Below, one piece after another: positions 1 to 37,707 of a stretch of 41,301 nucleotides of DNA. Origin of the DNA: a virus; IMG/VR virus record IMGVR_UViG_3300034061_006687, positions 1 to 41,301 of that record, one strand, 5' to 3'. A model generated the notes under the pieces. It saw nothing but the letters and a program-made list of their open reading frames with translations. It ran no database searches and was not told the DNA's origin. Position 1 is the first letter of the stretch. Each line of letters begins with the position of its first letter. The translations under genes were made by a program, and so were the position numbers.

Positions 1-601
1 ATTCGGCGACCGCTTGCAGGAATGCTGGAATCTTCCCAGCCACCCGCTCCTCGAAATACTCGGCCGCGACGCGCCAAGTGTGGCCGGGTTCGATTTGCTT
101 GCGGGCGATGAGGAACGCCTCCACCTCCCGCTCCTTCCCGGCAAACGCCGCGGCAAAATCCTCCAGCCGGTCGCGGTCCCGCAAAGTATCGTTAATCGAT
201 ACCGGCTCGACCGAAACCGGCGCCGGCAGGGCTTGCAGCTCCGCATTCACCGACTCAATCCGCGAATCGTAAACCGTCACCCGCTGCGGCTGGAATTCGC
301 CCACCTCTTCGGGCGTATACATGCCATTCAGCACCGCTGGGAAAACCGCCCGCACACCTTCGGAGATCACACGCGCCCGCAACATCTGGCGCGGATAGCT
401 TTTCCAGTTGTCCTTCCCGCCCAGCCCAGCCGCCTTGGCCCGGGCCATGTCCCAGTCGATGCGGAGGCTGCCGCCCTGCGGGTGCGAAAAGGTGGCTGAG
501 ACCTGTTCGTTCGTGTGGTCATGCCACTCCACCCGCCCGCCGGCCTGCTGGAACCTCGCCAGCATCGCGTCCGACTTGAGCGCCGCCCTGCCCTGGATGA
601 T
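1..601. repeat. Left copy of 601-bp terminal direct repeat
   Basis: This stretch aligns without gaps to 40701-41301. I count 37 mismatches (about 94% identity). The first 127 bases and the last 80 are identical, and differences cluster in between. The constant offset of 40700 means that joining the ends gives a circle of about 40.7 kb. The reading frame through the repeat stays open across the join. Population variation around a circular molecule, split by an assembler, explains this best. A true diverged terminal duplication cannot be excluded from one sequence. Confidence 0.9.
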
Positions 602-766
602 GTGGTAGTCGCTGGCCACCGAGCCCGGATGCCTGCCCTCCGCCTGCGCCACCAACATCAAGGCCAATGCTTGATCCGCCGTCTTGACTCCGAAGAGTCC
701 GCTCTTGGCGAGTGCTGTCGCCATGGTTTGCATGTCCCCAACTGGGACGAGTTGTGTGTTGCTCAT
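1..766 (-). CDS. Putative RecT-like single-strand annealing protein (5' part; runs off left edge)
   Basis: The ATG at 766 follows a purine-rich GAGGAATAAT leader and opens a frame that leaves the window at base 1. Joined to the right copy it continues to a TGA at 40663, giving 267 residues. The N-terminus reads MSNTQLVPVGDMQTMATALA, followed by a helical stretch (QALALMLVAQAEGRHP) and a compact core (RAALKSDAMLARFQQAGG, then a tryptophan-rich WKSYPRQMLRARVISEG). This pattern recurs in phage proteins encoded next to RecB-like nucleases. The neighbour downstream is such a nuclease, with an SSB-like protein close by, so I infer a strand-annealing recombinase. I cannot confirm RecT-fold membership without a profile search. 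Confidence 0.6.
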   Translation of the reverse strand, partial: MSNTQLVPVGDMQTMATALAKSGLFGVKTADQALALMLVAQAEGRHPGSVASDYHIIQGRAALKSDAMLARFQQAGGRVEWHDHTNEQVSATFSHPQGGSLRIDWDMARAKAAGLGGKDNWKSYPRQMLRARVISEGVRAVFPAVLNGMYTPEEVGEFQPQRVTVYDSRIESVNAELQALPAPVSVEPVSINDTLRDRDRLEDFAAAFAGKEREVEAFLIARKQIEPGHTWRVAAEYFEERVAGKIPAFLQAVAE

Positions 767-769
767 AGA

Positions 770-1206
770 TTATTCCTCTTGAGTTGTTTCTTGGGAAAAC
801 TGCCGCCCGATTGGACGGTGATGGGAGCCGTGCCGTGCTGAGCACTGCCCAGCCACGCCATGCCGCGCCGGGTCATGTCGCGCCTCACTTCTGCACTCAA
901 AAAAGAATGCAGTGTGTGAAGCCTCGCCTTGCCGGACCTTGCCAGGCCAATCCGCGCCGGGTCCGGCAATGCCTTGCCTCGCCGCAAACTGCTGCCCCCC
1001 TAAGAAGGAAGCAGTGTGTTTGCCAGGCCGCGCCCCACCCAGCATCGCCTTGCCCGACCAAGCATCGCCTGGCCAAGCCGGGGCTTGCCTCACTGCAGCG
1101 GGGTCGTGCCCCGCTGTGTGTAAAGCCGCGCCATGGCATGCCTGGCCAGTCCGAGCCCTTGCCAGCCCTACCCCTCCTCGCCACGATAAAATCTCAAGCC
1201 CGCTCG
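770..1206 (-). repeat. Array of three hairpin modules embedded in GCC-rich short repeats
   Basis: No conventional gene is evident in this 437-bp gap. Three modules about 100 bp apart each contain a hairpin: around 882-921 (CTGCA/TGCAG core), 977-1028 (ACTGCT/AGCAGT core) and 1083-1128 (AGCGGGG/CCCCGCT core). Each hairpin is followed on the plus strand by TGTGT(G/T)(A/T)A-like bases and then GCC. Between hairpins the sequence is a degenerate series of GCC-containing words about five bases apart. A 146-codon minus-strand frame spans 1210-770 with an ATGA overlap to the upstream gene. However, a five-base periodicity suppresses stops in several frames, so I treat coding as unproven. A transcript of the recombination operon would contain all three hairpins. 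Confidence 0.7.
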
Positions 1207-1680
1207 TCATGCCGCCTCCTTCATGAGCCGCAGGGCTTTTTTGAGGGTCGGCACCTGTCGAGACATCAAAGCCGTCCGCACTGCGAGCCGCTCCAGCGTG
1301 GCCTCATGTTTGCGACGCTCCTCCTCGGTGAGCACATCCAGCCGGGTGTTTGTCCCGAGGATCACTCCCTTTTGCAGGGCGATCTTGGCTTGGTGCTGGA
1401 AGTTCTCCATCACGCGGGTGTTCGCCGCCGCATCCACAATGACGAACTGGTGCCCCTTCTGCCCTCGGCCCGAAAGATAAACACCGTTCCCAAGTAAGGC
1501 TGTGCGGATTTGCGAAAGCGCCAACCCAAAAGCCATGGTGTCCCGCTTCTCCTTGAGCCGAGTCTCGAAAAACTCGGCCTCGTAGGTTTTGCCGTAGTCC
1601 ACGCCCTCGCGGATCATTTCCTCGTAGCAGTTCTTCCACAGCGGAAGACGCACGACTTCGGGTTGGGTTTCGTCTTCCAT
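1207..1680 (-). CDS. Conserved-looking phage protein of unknown function, 157 aa
   Basis: The ATG at 1680 is preceded by GGAGG seven bases upstream, inside the end of the previous gene. That decides against the longer frame reaching 1722. The protein starts MEDETQPEVVRLPLWKNCYE. It contains a charged middle (EFFETRLKEKRDTMAFGLAL), a glycine-rich turn (GNGVYLSGRGQKGHQF) and a helical basic C-terminus. No membrane segment or catalytic motif is evident. It sits second to last in the early operon, upstream of the hairpin array and the RecT-like gene, so a role in early regulation or DNA metabolism is only a guess from position. Confidence 0.75.
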   Translation of the reverse strand: MEDETQPEVVRLPLWKNCYEEMIREGVDYGKTYEAEFFETRLKEKRDTMAFGLALSQIRTALLGNGVYLSGRGQKGHQFVIVDAAANTRVMENFQHQAKIALQKGVILGTNTRLDVLTEEERRKHEATLERLAVRTALMSRQVPTLKKALRLMKEAA

Positions 1681-1682
1681 AA

Positions 1683-2258
1683 TCACGCCTCCACAAGGAA
1701 CCGGCCAAACTTCGGTCTCCAATCGCCCAGCCCGATCAACGCCCCCGCATCCTGCATGGCCTTGGTCAGGCTCTTGGGATTCACGATGCTCTCGTCAAAT
1801 TCGATGGGGAACTGGATTGACCATCCGGTCGGCACCATTGGGCGGATGCGAATGATCCGGCTCTTCTGCACCGCCACGCCCTTGCGAAGAGTGAACCGCG
1901 GATCCGCGTAGAGTTTTTCCTTGTCGCGGGGGCCATCATATTTGAGCGCCACATGCGGCACCGCGCAAAAGACCGCCGCCTGGACATCCTTGCCGATGCG
2001 CGATTTTTGCGCCCCGAGTTGGATGCACCTCTCGATGTTGTCCGAGGGCACGATCAACCCATCGGCCTCATCCCAATACAGGCCCGCCTCCCACTCCAGC
2101 CGGTCGCGTTCCTCATAGTCGGCATCCGTCAGTTTTTTACTGCCCTTGCTGGTAATTTCCTTGATGCGACGCACCAAAGGATTCGTCGGATCGGCCATAA
2201 GGCCGTTGTGCATGACGAGCGGTCTGATGCCCGTCCATTTTACTTCGATTGTTTTCAT
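1683..2258 (-). CDS. Phage protein with glycine-rich C-terminal loop, possibly RAMP-like, 191 aa
   Basis: The protein begins MKTIEVKWTGIRPLVMHNG, has a loop with DPTNPLVRRIKEIT, then LYWDEADGLIVPSDNIERCI. It ends with GALIGLGDWRPKFGRFLVEA. The hydrophobic first strand, the I-P-x-x-N-I-E segment and the final G-x-G-D-W-R-P-x-F-G-R-F motif resemble a group of phage early proteins. They also loosely resemble the ferredoxin-like RAMP fold of Cas7/Cas5 proteins. The function of the phage group is unknown to me. The upstream leader contains a G9 tract and a GGGGAG element about 14 bases before the ATG. Its stop lies two bases from the next start, so the two genes are translationally linked. Confidence 0.8.
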   Translation of the reverse strand: MKTIEVKWTGIRPLVMHNGLMADPTNPLVRRIKEITSKGSKKLTDADYEERDRLEWEAGLYWDEADGLIVPSDNIERCIQLGAQKSRIGKDVQAAVFCAVPHVALKYDGPRDKEKLYADPRFTLRKGVAVQKSRIIRIRPMVPTGWSIQFPIEFDESIVNPKSLTKAMQDAGALIGLGDWRPKFGRFLVEA

Positions 2259-2282
2259 GTGTGTGTTGATGCTCCCCGGGGG

Positions 2283-2293
2283 GGGGTGATCAG
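2283..2293. promoter_or_regulatory. GGGGTGATCAG motif, candidate operator half-site
   Basis: This motif lies between the genes ending at 2290 and starting at 2258. It repeats the core of the palindrome GGGTGATCACCC at 3150-3161 and resembles GGGGTGACCAG at 33394-33404. On the minus strand all three read (C/G)TG(A/G)TCACCC and lie upstream of minus-strand start codons. A shared regulator is inferred; none is identified. Confidence 0.35.
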
Positions 2294-4439: not shown

Positions 4440-5447
4440 ATGGACGCGCAAAAGCTCATTCCTCAATTCAACCGCAAACGGAACCGCTGGGTGATCGATG
4501 TGCCGGCGTCTTTGAATGGGGGGAAGCGATTGAGGAAGTTTTTTGCGTCCCAGGAGGAGGCGAATCGGGAGCATGCGAAGATGGTGTTTGGGTTGTCGCA
4601 CCAAGGGGTGTTGCCGTCACAGGTGGCGAAGGGGGATCGGTTGGTGGATTTTGTGGGGTTGTTCTTGGCGAAGAAGTCGGTGGAGGTGGAGCCGGTGACT
4701 TTGCGCCAGTTGAAGTGGGCGCTGAATATGCTGGTGGAGCGGGCGGGGCTGGGGGGGCTGGAGGAGTTGGATGCGGCGGCGGCGCGGCATTGGGTGGATC
4801 ACCTGCCGCTTGAGACTCGGGGCCGGTTCAATGTGTTTGCGGTGTGCAGAGACTTTTTCAACTGGCCGACGGTGCGGGAGCGGGTGCCGGTAAATCCGTT
4901 CTCGGATGCTCCGCCAAAGAAGGACAAGGGGGCGCGGCTGGAGATTCTGACTCCGGCGCAGATGCAGAAGCTGATGGCGGCGGAGTGGCCGGCGTGGTTC
5001 CGGGCTTGGTTGGTGGCGGGGGGATTCGCGGGGATGCGGACTCGGGAGATTTTTGCGGTGGACTATTCGGCGATTGATTGGGACTACGAGGAGATCACGA
5101 TCCGCACGGAGGATTCGAAGCAGGGATGGGCGGCGCGGCCGCGGAACATCACGATCCAGCCGGCGTTCAAGCGGCACATGCCGACGGGGAAGGGGCTGCT
5201 GGTGGCGGGGTGGAGCAAGAAAAAATGGGAGCCCATGGCGAAGGAGGCGTGCTGGTTGATCGGCGTGGAGGAGGGCGTGTGGCCGTCAAACTGCCTGCGG
5301 CATTCGTTCGCGAGCTACCACCTGGCGCACTTCCGCGATGCGGCGAAGACGGCGTTTGAGATGGGGCACACCAGTCCGGCGTTGCTCTACCAGACCTACG
5401 CGAATTGCGTGACCCGGCGCGAGGCTGAAAAGTGGTGGGCGGTGTAG
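4440..5447 (+). CDS. int: Tyrosine-type site-specific integrase, 335 aa
   Basis: It catalyses recombination between attP and the bacterial tRNA site. The N-terminal third carries a basic arm-binding region (FNRKRNRW) and a SAM-like core-binding helix set. The catalytic domain has Arg200 in GGFAGMRTREI, the second Arg287 in SNCLRHSFASY, the MGH box at 308-310 and the nucleophile candidate Tyr320 in LLYQTYAN. The usual first His of HxxR is Asn284 here. The C-terminus (TRREAEKWWAV) recalls integrases I associate with Verrucomicrobiota, from memory only. The gene is followed six bases later by the convergent giant virion gene. Length is normal for the family. Confidence 0.93.
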   Translation: MDAQKLIPQFNRKRNRWVIDVPASLNGGKRLRKFFASQEEANREHAKMVFGLSHQGVLPSQVAKGDRLVDFVGLFLAKKSVEVEPVTLRQLKWALNMLVERAGLGGLEELDAAAARHWVDHLPLETRGRFNVFAVCRDFFNWPTVRERVPVNPFSDAPPKKDKGARLEILTPAQMQKLMAAEWPAWFRAWLVAGGFAGMRTREIFAVDYSAIDWDYEEITIRTEDSKQGWAARPRNITIQPAFKRHMPTGKGLLVAGWSKKKWEPMAKEACWLIGVEEGVWPSNCLRHSFASYHLAHFRDAAKTAFEMGHTSPALLYQTYANCVTRREAEKWWAV

Positions 5448-21838: not shown

Positions 21839-22639
21839 TCAGAAGGTGCCGCCGTCGATCTCGGTCTCGAGCGCGGTGACGCGGGAGGTGAGAGCTGTGG
21901 CTGCGGATTCGATGGTGCCTGCGCGGGTCTCGAGGGTGTCGATGTCGCTCTCGGCTGTGCTGACGCGGGTGGTCAGGGCTGTGGCGGCGGACTCGATGGC
22001 GTTGATGTCGGACTCGGCTGTGGAGACGCGGGTGGTGAGGGCCGTGGCGGCGCTCTCAATGGTGCCTGCACGGGTCTCAAGGGCGTCGATGTCGCCTTCG
22101 GCTGTGGTGACGCGGCCTGCGAGGGTGGAGGCGGCTCCTTCGATGCTGGTGGCGCGGGTTTCGAGGGCGTTGATGTCGGACTCTGCGGTGTCGAGGCGGC
22201 TGTCGAGGGCGCTGTCGGCGGCTTCGAGGGCTGTGACGGCGCTGCTGAGGTTGCTGGAGGCGCTGTTGGCGAGGGTGGTGATGGCTCCGTTCAGCGTGCT
22301 GTCTGCCGATTGGAAGGCCGAGACAACTTCCGTGAGGGAGTCGAGGGCTGCGCCGTCCACATTGCTGAGGACATTGTCGATGCGTGTGCCGAGGGCGGCT
22401 TCCGCTGCGGTGGCGCGGGAGGTTTCCGAGCTGATGCTGCTGTTCAGCGTGGAGACTTCGGAGGAGAGGTCGGCGTTCGTGGCGAAGTGGCCTTCACCGG
22501 CGAGGGCTACGATGCCGGAGTCGAGGCCGATGTAGAGTTTGTCGTCAACCTTGTTGTAGGCGAGTTCGCCGACGGCGAGGCTGGACGGGGCACCGGCTGA
22601 ACCGGTCAGGCGGCGTTTGATGCGGAGGGTGTTGGGCAT
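21839..22639 (-). CDS. Tail fibre with long coiled-coil shaft, 266 aa
   Basis: It starts MPNTLRIKRRLTGSAGAPSS, then LAVGELAYNKVDDKLYIG, the fibre N-terminal motif shared with the 21737 gene. From about residue 55 to the end the protein is a heptad-rich coiled coil. It has tandem repeats of the type E-S-A-A-T-A-L-T-T-R-V-S-T-A-E-S-D-I. The repeat count may vary between relatives by recombination. No receptor-binding tip is seen, so a separate protein may cap it. Confidence 0.8.
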   Translation of the reverse strand: MPNTLRIKRRLTGSAGAPSSLAVGELAYNKVDDKLYIGLDSGIVALAGEGHFATNADLSSEVSTLNSSISSETSRATAAEAALGTRIDNVLSNVDGAALDSLTEVVSAFQSADSTLNGAITTLANSASSNLSSAVTALEAADSALDSRLDTAESDINALETRATSIEGAASTLAGRVTTAEGDIDALETRAGTIESAATALTTRVSTAESDINAIESAATALTTRVSTAESDIDTLETRAGTIESAATALTSRVTALETEIDGGTF

Positions 22640-29673: not shown

Positions 29674-29780
29674 GGTATCCACCAAGTGGGTCAGTGCGGG
29701 ATTAAGGACCGGCACAGTGGGTCCTTGATTCCAAAGTGCCTGACGCAAACGGGGTTCGTCACGGGGGTGCCGCCCAAATC

Positions 29781-29820
29781 AACAGAAACCAACAGAAATC
29801 AACAGAAACCAACCGAAAAA
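29781..29820. repeat. Four tandem 10-bp AACAGAAA(C/T)C repeats
   Basis: The unit AACAGAAACC/AACAGAAATC repeats three times with a fourth diverged copy (AACCGAAAAA). Ten-base phasing places each copy on the same helix face. The array lies between the leader terminator and the first structural gene, 108 bp before its start, and could be an activator-binding site. Confidence 0.5.
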
Positions 29821-30730: not shown

Positions 30731-30934
30731 TTATTGGAGTTGGAATTCGCGGCGGATGACGGTGAGGCTGAAGGTGTGGCGCATGCCGGGGGGCGAGGGG
30801 ATGGGGCGCAGGAGGCCGGCGTCGAGGTAGGTCCTGTAGGTCTGCTCGGTGATGCCGAGGAGGTCGAGGACATCGCGCTTGCGGAGGGCGTTAGTAGCAG
30901 CCGCCGCCGGTGACCTGGAGCTTGCCGGCGACAT
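30731..30934 (-). CDS. MerR/HTH_17-type DNA-binding protein, 67 aa
   Basis: The nearest in-frame start is the ATG at 30934, within the end of the terminase gene (44-base overlap). The core L-R-K-R-D-V-L-D-L-L-G-I-T-E-Q-T-Y-R-T-Y is a helix-turn-helix, followed by a wing (GLLRPIPSPPGMRHTFSL). The first 16 residues are low complexity because they lie in the overlap. It may regulate late transcription or take part in packaging as a small DNA-binding factor. Confidence 0.65.
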   Translation of the reverse strand: MSPASSRSPAAAATNALRKRDVLDLLGITEQTYRTYLDAGLLRPIPSPPGMRHTFSLTVIRREFQLQ

Positions 30935-32492
30935 CGTCGACTCCGCTGGCGAGGAGGTAGCGGAGGCAGTCGATGGGGTCTTTGCTGGCGCCCTTGGGGC
31001 CGTCTTTGCCGGTCCATTCTTTGAGGGCCCAGATGGTATTGGTGCAGCGGGCGCTGATGTAGAGGTGCGGTGCGTTTTCATGGTCGATGGGTTTTTGGTC
31101 GTCGTAGTAGAGGTGGTCGTTGATAAAGGCGATGCCCTCGGCGATGTTCTCGGCGGGGCAACTGCGGAAGGGCATGCCTTTTTCGGCAAGGTCTTCGAGG
31201 AGGGTGGTGGCGGTCTCGCGGGTGCCGACGACCACCGTGTTCCCGTAGCGGGAGTCGATCCAGCGTTCGAAAACCTCCACGCCGTCGATGGCCTCGATGC
31301 GCTGGATTTCCTGGATGTAGGTCTCGAGCCCGAAACCCATGGGGGTCTGGCCTTCGCCGGGTTCGCCGTCGGATTTTTTGCCCGAGGAAATGGCCCAGGT
31401 GCCGGGGTAGCCGAAGCCGGGGATGTATTCGTCCTCCTGCGGCCATTCGCGGTAAATCCACTTGCGGCCGGCGGCATCGACCTTTGCCCAGATCATGAAC
31501 CAGGGCTTCGTGCCTGCGGGATCGCAGAAGTGGTAGACGGTTCCCGTGGTGGGAACTTTATCGGGCGGGACGACATGCACGCCTTCGCGGAACCGCGGGA
31601 AACAGGTGGCGGTGGCTTTGACGGGGACGCCGTAGGCGCGGCAGAGGATTTTCTCGCGGGGCTGGCGGTCGAGCTCGACCTTCATGCGGTCGTAGCCGGC
31701 CCAGGGGTTGAGTTTTGTGTGGAAAAAATAAATCGCGGCTCGGCGGGTGGTGCATTGCTGGGAGACGGGGACCAACTCAAAGCCGGTGCCGGATTTGTCG
31801 GGGAGGAGTTCGGCGGGGACTTCTTCGAGGGTCTTGGCGCCTTGGAGGTATTGTTTGACCGTGGGCGAGTAGCCTTCGACCGGTGTGAAGGTGACGACGA
31901 GGATGCCGTTGCGGTCGAGGAGGCGGAATCGGATGGTTTCAAGCCAGTCGAGAGGGACAAGCTCGTCGCACCACGCTATGTCGATCTCGCCGCCTTCAAT
32001 CGTGCTGATGTCCTGGGAGTAGTTGCGGAACCAGCACTGGCTTTTGTTCGGGAGGACAAAGGTGTTTTCGGAAAAACCGTTTTTCTGGGTGTAGCTGATG
32101 TTCGTGATGCGGTCGCGCTTGGCCGTGCGGAGGTCCTTCGGCATGAAATTCCACAGGATCGGCTGCTGCATTGACACGGAGTTGTCGTTGGTCTGCTGGA
32201 AGCACCAGGCGCGGCTCTCGGGCTTGTCGATCAAGGTCCGCATGACGAGCTTGCCGGCCCATGTCGATTTGCCGGAGCGGTTGCCGCCGAGGACCAAGAT
32301 GTCCTTGTATTTCCTCGCCAACTCTTCCGCCCGCGCCCAGTGGTCGGGCTCGTAGCCGTAGGCAATCGGGTCGTCCTTCTCCAAGGCGATCCGGTGCTCG
32401 CGCTCGGCGAGGAGGCGCTTGGCGCCCTCGAAGTCGGCCTGGAACTGCTGGGGCGTGATAAACGGCAGGAGCGGGTGGTAGCTTTGCGTCAT
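30891..32492 (-). CDS. terL: Terminase large subunit, 533 aa
   Basis: It starts MTQSYHPLLPFITPQQFQAD. The packaging ATPase has Walker A GGNRSGKST at residues 69-77 and Walker B IDIAWCDE at about 170-177, with a coupling TFTPVEG motif near 200. The C-terminal RNase H-like nuclease region begins with FCDPAGTKPWF near residue 330, with further acids in WIDSRYGNTV. It cuts concatemeric or circular DNA and pumps it into the capsid through the portal. It overlaps the previous gene by ATGA. Confidence 0.93.
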   Translation of the reverse strand: MTQSYHPLLPFITPQQFQADFEGAKRLLAEREHRIALEKDDPIAYGYEPDHWARAEELARKYKDILVLGGNRSGKSTWAGKLVMRTLIDKPESRAWCFQQTNDNSVSMQQPILWNFMPKDLRTAKRDRITNISYTQKNGFSENTFVLPNKSQCWFRNYSQDISTIEGGEIDIAWCDELVPLDWLETIRFRLLDRNGILVVTFTPVEGYSPTVKQYLQGAKTLEEVPAELLPDKSGTGFELVPVSQQCTTRRAAIYFFHTKLNPWAGYDRMKVELDRQPREKILCRAYGVPVKATATCFPRFREGVHVVPPDKVPTTGTVYHFCDPAGTKPWFMIWAKVDAAGRKWIYREWPQEDEYIPGFGYPGTWAISSGKKSDGEPGEGQTPMGFGLETYIQEIQRIEAIDGVEVFERWIDSRYGNTVVVGTRETATTLLEDLAEKGMPFRSCPAENIAEGIAFINDHLYYDDQKPIDHENAPHLYISARCTNTIWALKEWTGKDGPKGASKDPIDCLRYLLASGVDDVAGKLQVTGGGCY

Positions 32493-36304: not shown

Positions 36305-37707
36305 GTGTTTGTCAGTTCTTCTATTAAAACGCGAAAAGCTCGCTCTGCTGTTGCTGGCACGACTCCGTTGCCGAGGAGTCGCAGTTCGTCGGTTCGATTG
36401 TCACAGGAGACGCACAGCTCGGCATAACCCAGCCCACCGGCAGGCCCATAAGGGTCTCCACCCAGCGGGGGTTCAATTTGCCCGCCATGTTCATTTTGGT
36501 CAGTTGTGCAGGGATCGTTTTGTGGGTCGTTGAATCTTGGTTGATGTTGTGGCCGTCTTGAAGTTGCGGCGTTGCCCACGCTTTCGGAGTCGCACCAACT
36601 TGATTCTGTAGGTAGATTTGCGTCGAGGTGTTCTGGTTCTTCTCCTCTGCTACGGACGGGGTGCGCCATTGCTTCTCCTTCGCATGAACAAACTCGCCCA
36701 ATGTTGCTTGTCCGCTGGCCATCCTCTTGATGTTGCTGTCCGCATCGGGACTGCTCTTCCAGTCGCAAGCTCTCGGCGTTGGAAATTGCTCCTGCATCAC
36801 CGCAATCGGTAGGGGTCGATGTAAATTGATCCCCTCCGCAGCTTTCCTGATCCTCCTCGCCTCCCAAGTCCCCAAAGACTCGCTCACCATTCCATCCAGG
36901 CTTCTTGCTGTCGGCCACAACCCTTGGCGGCTCCCATCCGTGCTGGGGTTCGCCGGGGCGGCTTGGCCATACTTGGTCATTGCATGGTGCAGGCTCACCC
37001 CGTGGAACCCGCCCTGCTCCAGATTGTTGTCCTTGCGTAACACAACCCCATCCCTGTGGTTCGATGTGTCCGGCGTCGGCCAGTTCGCCGCATCCTGCGT
37101 CACCACCGCGCAGAGGTAGCCCTTGCCCAGCATGTGGTCGTGACTCTTGGAGCCAATCGGCCCAGTGTCCTTGTATTCGCTGGCTCTTATCGTAGGCCAG
37201 GATGAAGACCCGCTTGCGCTGGTGCGGTGCGCCGACTTCAGCCGCGCTGAATATTCCCCACGCCGCTTTATAACCGATTGATTCCAGCTCTCCAATGACT
37301 TCTCGGAGTCCGAGGGAGATGTGGCCTTCGACATTTTCGAAGAAGCAAATGCGGGGTTGAAGAAGTCGAATTCCGTCTGCGATAAATGGCCAGAGGTGGC
37401 GAGGGTCGTCTGTGCCGAGGCGCTTTCCGGCTGCGCTGAATGGCTGGCAGGGATAGCCCCCAGTGAGGATGTCCACGCGGTCACGAAACTCTGACCATGG
37501 GAAGGATTTAAGATCCGTCCAGATAGGTGCCGGGTCCATGAGTCCCGCTTCCATTTTTGCGACCAGGTTCGCGCAGGCGAAGGCTTCGATCTCGCAAAGA
37601 GCGACCGTGCGCAGATTTCGGATAACTCGGTGCAGTCCAAGCTCAATGCCGCCGTATCCGGCACATAGGCCGATGTGTGTAATTGGCGCGGGAGTATCCA
37701 CATTCAC
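36301..37707 (-). CDS. DNA cytosine-5 methyltransferase, 468 aa, GTG start
   Basis: The GTG at 37707 overlaps the resolvase stop (GTGA). Motif I is HIGLCAGYGGIELGL (residues 11-25), motif IV with the catalytic cysteine is GGYPCQPFS (Cys87), motif VI ENVEGH, motif VIII QRKRVF, and motif X RLLGNGVVPATAERAF at the end. It transfers methyl groups from SAM to cytosine, probably protecting phage DNA. Between motifs VIII and X lies a long variable region (about residues 190-430) with spaced L-A-D-A, V-A-D-S, I-S-N-A, M-A-H-P and V-G-N-A. A second frame is open through almost the whole gene. Confidence 0.9.
   Translation of the reverse strand: MNVDTPAPITHIGLCAGYGGIELGLHRVIRNLRTVALCEIEAFACANLVAKMEAGLMDPAPIWTDLKSFPWSEFRDRVDILTGGYPCQPFSAAGKRLGTDDPRHLWPFIADGIRLLQPRICFFENVEGHISLGLREVIGELESIGYKAAWGIFSAAEVGAPHQRKRVFILAYDKSQRIQGHWADWLQESRPHAGQGLPLRGGDAGCGELADAGHIEPQGWGCVTQGQQSGAGRVPRGEPAPCNDQVWPSRPGEPQHGWEPPRVVADSKKPGWNGERVFGDLGGEEDQESCGGDQFTSTPTDCGDAGAISNAESLRLEEQSRCGQQHQEDGQRTSNIGRVCSCEGEAMAHPVRSRGEEPEHLDANLPTESSWCDSESVGNAATSRRPQHQPRFNDPQNDPCTTDQNEHGGQIEPPLGGDPYGPAGGLGYAELCVSCDNRTDELRLLGNGVVPATAERAFRVLIEELTNT
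36324..37703 (-). CDS. Long overlapping frame (+1) inside the methyltransferase gene, 459 codons
   Basis: The ATG at 37703 is four bases after the methyltransferase GTG and the frame stays open for 1380 bases. Its C-terminal two-thirds contain spaced S-W-P-T-I, N-W-P-T-P, L-W-P-T-A, F-P-T-P, W-R-T-P and W-A-T-P motifs, and then KLNPRWVETLMGLPVGW. From memory, the W-P-T-P series and the L-N-P-x-W-V-E-x-L-M-G block occur in phage cytosine methyltransferases in the main frame. So this frame is unlikely to be a chance shadow. It is either a true overlapping gene or the trace of an ancestral frame switch. Confidence 0.4.
   Translation of the reverse strand: MWILPRQLHTSAYVPDTAALSLDCTELSEICARSLFARSKPSPARTWSQKWKRDSWTRHLSGRILNPSHGQSFVTAWTSSLGAIPASHSAQPESASAQTTLATSGHLSQTEFDFFNPAFASSKMSKATSPSDSEKSLESWNQSVIKRRGEYSARLKSAHRTSASGSSSWPTIRASEYKDTGPIGSKSHDHMLGKGYLCAVVTQDAANWPTPDTSNHRDGVVLRKDNNLEQGGFHGVSLHHAMTKYGQAAPANPSTDGSRQGLWPTARSLDGMVSESLGTWEARRIRKAAEGINLHRPLPIAVMQEQFPTPRACDWKSSPDADSNIKRMASGQATLGEFVHAKEKQWRTPSVAEEKNQNTSTQIYLQNQVGATPKAWATPQLQDGHNINQDSTTHKTIPAQLTKMNMAGKLNPRWVETLMGLPVGWVMPSCASPVTIEPTNCDSSATESCQQQQSELFAF

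Follow-up and report, generated by a model that had tools for sequence, protein, structure and literature searches.

The Closest Described Systems

VIPR (Viral Interference Programmable Repeat) is a phage-encoded system described in a 2026 preprint, in a version that is not peer reviewed (PMC13142463). According to that preprint, VIPR combines a phage RAMP protein with vrRNAs, each made of 9–16 YNNGG repeats and a structured tail, and the GGY motif is kept in all of the vrRNAs presented there. The NN letters are described as reading double-stranded DNA with one base skipped, rival phages and satellites are named as the targets in nature, and the system may be assisted by an accessory gene, vap (PMC13142463). 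VIPR has been proposed as a viral forerunner of CRISPR.

Two other systems invite comparison. The backbone proteins of class 1 CRISPR-Cas effectors (Csm3/Cas7) have a RAMP fold, and their subunits polymerize on a guide RNA. The trp RNA-binding attenuation protein (TRAP) binds GAG/UAG sites in cis, with triplets that lie about two free bases apart and hence recur with a five-base period. The TRAP protein is unrelated to Vipr, however, and the likeness is an analogy only; TRAP-like ring binding, a reading prompted by the five-base period of the locus described here, was dropped on the homology to Vipr.

The locus lies in an IMG/VR virus record (IMGVR_UViG_3300034061_006687) of 41,301 nucleotides, all of which was analysed and is referred to below as the window. 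It carries a gene of the Vipr family, GGY/NN repeats, and folded tails that covary, inserted together as a block, and the repeat region very probably encodes the guide RNAs of a phage VIPR system. The protein, the number of repeats, the tail, the order of the genes, and the presence in a phage all agree with VIPR. The phages concerned are well outside those of E. coli and Pseudomonas that have been studied so far.

The vipr Gene and Its Small Partner

The minus-strand operon runs from a small gene (2290–2493) through a 191-aa gene (1683–2258) and a 171-aa gene (1207–1722) to the array and then to a recT-like gene that starts at 766. The identity of the system was reached through a PDB sequence match of the 191-aa protein. 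As a single sequence, it matches PDB 36pp_D, “SUSP1 Vipr protein”, over residues 1–190 (E 6.4e-32), and its family profile matches the same entry with E 9.5e-72; it also belongs to phrog_4652 (E 9e-50). An AlphaFold2 model (pLDDT 92.4) has the RAMP fold, with the best Foldseek matches to Csm3/Cas7 of CRISPR effectors, and residues G176, G178, P182, G185, and R186, close to the C terminus, are invariant, in keeping with the glycine-rich loop expected of a Vipr protein. Comparison of the gene with its counterpart at locus L065 gave a pN of 0.071 and a pS of 0.756, values by which vipr is judged to be under strong purifying selection. PADLOC, Pfam, and NCBIfam, run on the 191-aa and 171-aa proteins, returned nothing meaningful.

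The small partner gene (1207–1680, minus strand) occupies the vap position and is kept beside vipr in relatives. Its open reading frame opens at a TTG at 1722 (171 aa), and the ATG at 1680 is the likelier start. The matches of the partner protein model (pLDDT 84) are at best weak and winged-helix-like. Homology to SUSP1-type vap1 is weak and tentative: for the link to a vap1 homologue of that type, an iterated search of small size gave E 8.7e-6 and hhalign a probability of 14%.

The window and the SUSP1 VIPR share a homologous Vipr, a small partner gene, and several GGY/NN vrRNAs, each with a structured tail, and both are encoded by phages. They differ in that the Vipr of the window has diverged far from that of SUSP1 (it shares 35% identity with the near-identical relative in wV8) and in that the GGY motif is looser in the window. 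The tail of the SUSP1 clade is reported as a pseudoknot in the preprint, whereas the window has two-tier hairpins with an ACA/NA loop; the same text places one SUSP1 guide upstream and three downstream, whereas all four guides of the window sit downstream of both cassette genes. Compared with class 1 CRISPR-Cas, the window lacks a repeat–spacer array, its period is five rather than six bases, and its guide letters are gapped.

The Pentamer Array

Read on the minus strand, positions 1182 to 795 consist of four back-to-back units, each with a run of pentamers followed by a folded tail. Every unit is built of 12–14 five-base steps with GGC (or a triplet one base off) in front and two free bases behind. 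The GGCNN repeats number 12, 14, 13, and 12 per unit, 51 in total, which is within the range of 9–16 given in PMC13142463. The repeats of vrRNA 1 (1123–1182, minus strand; 12 units) have the NN letters GA GG AG TG AG TC CT CA AT AT GC TT, and those of vrRNA 2 (1020–1089, minus strand; 14 units) read AA CC TT CA GA TT CG AA GA TG GG GC CT AA. The letters are GA AA AT CG CC GC TT CT AA CC AA GA TT in vrRNA 3 (919–983, minus strand; 13 units) and GC AT CC GC AT GT TG AG TC AC AC TC in vrRNA 4 (825–884, minus strand; 12 units).

The initial annotation had noted a five-base rhythm of GCC words, and the rhythm is real: the pattern GCCNNGCCNNGCCNNGCC, with up to one mismatch, has 21 matches in the window, 16 of them within 842–1157, while 100 shuffles gave a mean of 1.8 matches and a maximum of 9. 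That several frames are free of stops was also seen correctly and is a by-product of the repeat, since GGCNN yields a stop solely as TAG when NN is TA, and TA is missing from all 51 NN of the array.

The GGY motif is strict in 37 of the 51 pentamers, against a median of 93% across related loci. The remaining 14 are one base off, which leaves the strict share among the lowest seen; similarly loose arrays occur at loci L111, L113, and L125.

A CRISPR-like array, in which direct repeats tens of bases long alternate with unique spacers, was also looked for at the locus, and five-base units and covarying hairpins were found instead. A blastn search of INPHARED with the array gave no match, and the exact array pattern was found twice in 84,980 cellular genomes, both times within ordinary genes.

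Hairpin Tails and Covariation

The tails of vrRNA 1 (1087–1126), vrRNA 2 (984–1023), and vrRNA 3 (882–922), all on the minus strand, are two-tier hairpins with the layout GC-NN(N)-AC / ACA / stem-loop-stem / NA / GT-...-GC. Their outer stems have 7, 6, and 7 bp, an ACA/NA internal loop follows, and the inner stem has about eight pairs; the stem sequences differ, while the frame around them (ACACAC..GC ... GC..NAGT) is constant. Three hairpin modules with different stems in one frame had been recognized before this analysis, and their folds do beat shuffles (z −2.9, −2.6, and −5.0). The count of three holds for the two-tier units, and a fourth unit at 795–884, with a different hairpin, had been overlooked. 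Likewise, the constant frame was rightly seen, and its flank, taken as TGTGT-type bases followed by GCC, is corrected to GGC-NN(N)-ACACAC-N-GC on the functional minus strand, which is the operon strand.

The tail of vrRNA 4 (795–824, minus strand) belongs to a different class, a simple hairpin that reads CATCACCGTCC-AATC-GGGCGGCAGTTTT, and the end of the unit is spelled CATCACCGTCC-AATC-GGGCGG-CAGTTTT. Its fold also exceeds shuffles (z −2.35), and last-in-array tails that resemble it are present at L071–L073, L092, L112, and L129.

A covariance analysis over related phages, as suggested in the initial annotation, was run on 32 distinct two-tier tails. Paired cells amounted to 99.1% against 78.4% in shuffled alignments, changes on both sides of a pair were counted in 83 cells against 21.4, and the covariation score was 0.580 against 0.188 when shuffled and at most 0.117 when slid. 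Tail ends in the alignment were picked by outer-arm pairing, which somewhat favours the outer stem; the inner stem, not selected by pairing, was 99.6% paired in the same 32 tails. Many of the tail pairs take G-U forms. The covariation, together with the constant orientation to the adjacent gene and the lack of a conserved protein frame, bears out the earlier suggestion of selection on RNA structure. Rfam returned nothing at gathering scores in the window and nothing at E values up to 1 in 760–1220; a riboswitch or other known RNA was rejected on this result.

The looseness of the repeats can be read in two ways: as tolerance of loose repeats by Vipr, or as partial decay of the window array. 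The first would fit a distinct VIPR subtype, defined for this clade by two-tier tails with ACA/NA loops, a mixture of two tail classes in one array, and a Vipr that tolerates non-strict GGY. Such a subtype is a tentative proposal, and the odds are somewhat against it; if it is true, repeat recognition is looser than reported. The second, a VIPR locus in which the proteins are intact while the repeats are losing GGY and some guides are dead, would account for the 14 deviating pentamers and the low strict share. The tails, however, have kept their structure and pair well, purifying selection on vipr is strong, and the similarly loose arrays at L111, L113, and L125 indicate that looseness may be tolerated. 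Decay is regarded as unlikely.

Boundaries, Neighbours, and Linkage

The VIPR cassette (768–2289, minus strand) is present in the window and absent from close relatives. Records L002 and L003 are 92–94% identical to the window on both sides of the block; identity ends at window position 2290 and restarts at 767, and some 10 bp separate the two matching stretches. Because these two records miss everything between the matching flanks, the two genes and the array can be treated as one 1.5-kb block that is gained or lost together, and by this alignment 768–2289 is a moron-like insertion and not a recT leader. The locus presents a complete VIPR system in a phage cassette with clean boundaries and adds a strongly covarying tail class.

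The recT-like gene (2–766, minus strand; PF03837, E 1.8e-5; phrog_561, E 2.3e-29) has a 3′ end that runs off the window edge. The RecT proteins of L002 and L003 are 95–96% identical to that of the window, and both records keep recT without the two genes or the array; on this comparison, recT is a neighbour only, outside the system. Its position could still suggest that the array is a cis-acting leader RNA regulating recT, since recT comes next on the same strand and 28 bases separate the end of the last tail from the recT start. That reading is very improbable, given relatives that carry recT without the array, arrays that elsewhere precede other genes or flank the 171-aa gene on both sides, and the lack of an Rfam family match. 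A search for the module beside annealing-protein genes, which the initial annotation had suggested along with a link to recT or recombination, found the array in 0 of 63 recT relatives, and that link is not supported. The gene to which the array belongs is instead the one at 1683–2258, two places upstream. An element specific to recT was likewise rejected, as it is missing in the closest RecT relatives.

Searches of IMG/VR with the 171-aa protein, the array patterns, and the 191-aa protein recovered the same combination repeatedly. At a strict threshold, 38 of 42 loci have the array next to the 191-aa gene and on the coding strand of that gene, and inspection shows looser arrays at the other four; the vipr-locus and relative sets overlap and include near-duplicates. 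In the vipr-bearing loci examined, GGC stands on the vipr coding strand. This constancy and the many G-U pairs, as RNA would show, disfavour a DNA element, whether a recombination hot spot or a protein-binding DNA array, in place of transcribed guides. Repetitive DNA adjoining a recombination gene in a mobile cassette would suit such an element, and its probability is nevertheless rated lower still than that of a leader. The earlier idea of a protein-binding array came close in that Vipr would be expected to bind the RNA. The 146-codon frame at 770–1210, offered as an alternative, is open as a consequence of the repeat, has no Pfam match, and is hypervariable at NN between relatives while the tails covary as RNA, so a coding gene there can be dismissed with near certainty.

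Proposed Mechanism and Guide Letters

By analogy with the SUSP1 work (PMC13142463), the VIPR array of the window is proposed to be transcribed and processed, and its products to target DNA and repress competitors. On that model, the transcript of the array would be cleaved to give four vrRNAs, each about 100 nt long, and Vipr subunits would line up on each vrRNA with one GGY per subunit. The NN letters would pair with double-stranded DNA and leave every third target base, the codon wobble, unread; an example of a predicted decoded target is GANAANATNCGNCCNGCNTTNCTNAANCCNAANGA. Binding would repress the target genes of a competing phage, satellite, or prophage, and would be made stronger by the partner protein (Vap).

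In the NN letters of 200 related guides, codon positions 1–2 fit best (KL 0.046 sense, 0.066 antisense; 0.094–0.157 in the other phases), and the sense arrangement was the best in 466 of 500 bootstraps. This signal belongs to the pool of related guides, the four window guides being individually too short to show it. TA occurs among the NN of the related guides at 0.55 of expectation. Moreover, L134 and L137 have an NN run in common that is shifted by three units (6/6), and L123 and L132 have one shifted by two units (10/10), a pattern that supports the tiling of one target by guides of different phages. Common guides could be due to descent among related phages; the shifts and the different array slots speak against simple copying. 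Both NN usage and tiling support a gapped code in the family, and they are tests of that code independent of known targets. The overlapping guides of L123, L128, L132, L134, L137, and L138 spell GG CC TG TT TA GC AC RT AG CC CC TG AA GT GG GA, and a search of IMG/VR with one shared guide gave no target above chance.

Exact searches of all IMG/VR contigs with 8-unit cores of vrRNA 2 and vrRNA 3 gave extension at only about chance level. The four window guides, with up to three mismatches, had no matches or 3-mismatch matches judged to be chance in 348 genomes of one phylum, and no target in 30 related phage records. A terminase relative at 38% is present in a genome of the searched phylum; the phage host itself is uncertain. 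A test of the skip rule over 1.27 Mb of locus DNA gave no discrimination, the amount of DNA being too small.

Related Loci and the Carrier Phage

The gene pair and GGC/GGT pentamers are also found in Pseudomonas phage LESphi2, Mycobacterium phage LittleE, and Escherichia phage wV8. In Gordonia phage Trine, the gene pair is present as well, and pentamer runs lie inside the annotated partner gene. In wV8 (L149:3700–3900 and 5090–5300), the annotated DR_4 repeats belong to GGT-NN arrays that flank the vipr gene pair. The gene pair and arrays of LittleE (L147:3986–5460) oppose the direction of transcription and have tail genes on either side, in the manner of an inserted cassette. Between the pentamer runs of LittleE (L147:3759–3796 and 5358–5395) and Trine (L148:4579–4854) stand look-alikes of the tRNA T-arm (GGTTCGAGTCC and GGTTCGACTCC), and ARAGORN calls one odd tRNA in Trine. 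These elements of the actinophage arrays could be RNase P-type sites at which the guide array is processed.

A shorter, diverged Vipr-like protein of 186 aa, 28–29% identical to the window Vipr, precedes arrays with the same tail class at L067, L069, L078, L082, L084, L091, L093, and L098; the 171-aa partner was not found beside its gene. In two cellular genomes of the phylum scanned for targets (L183, minus strand; L185:1947–2250), a phrog_4652 gene occurs with GGC pentamer runs nearby, and these loci are possible prophage VIPRs.

The carrier is a virus record with an integrase and a terminase. PHROGs matches include the integrase (4440–5447), a phage exonuclease (16953–18107), the terminase large subunit (30891–32492), and a DNA methyltransferase (36324–37703), and with this gene content the record resembles a temperate tailed phage. 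Further tandem repeats of the window are a 10/20-bp AAACCAACAG array at 29776–29818 and 63/84-bp repeats at 21929–22227 that overlap long open frames.
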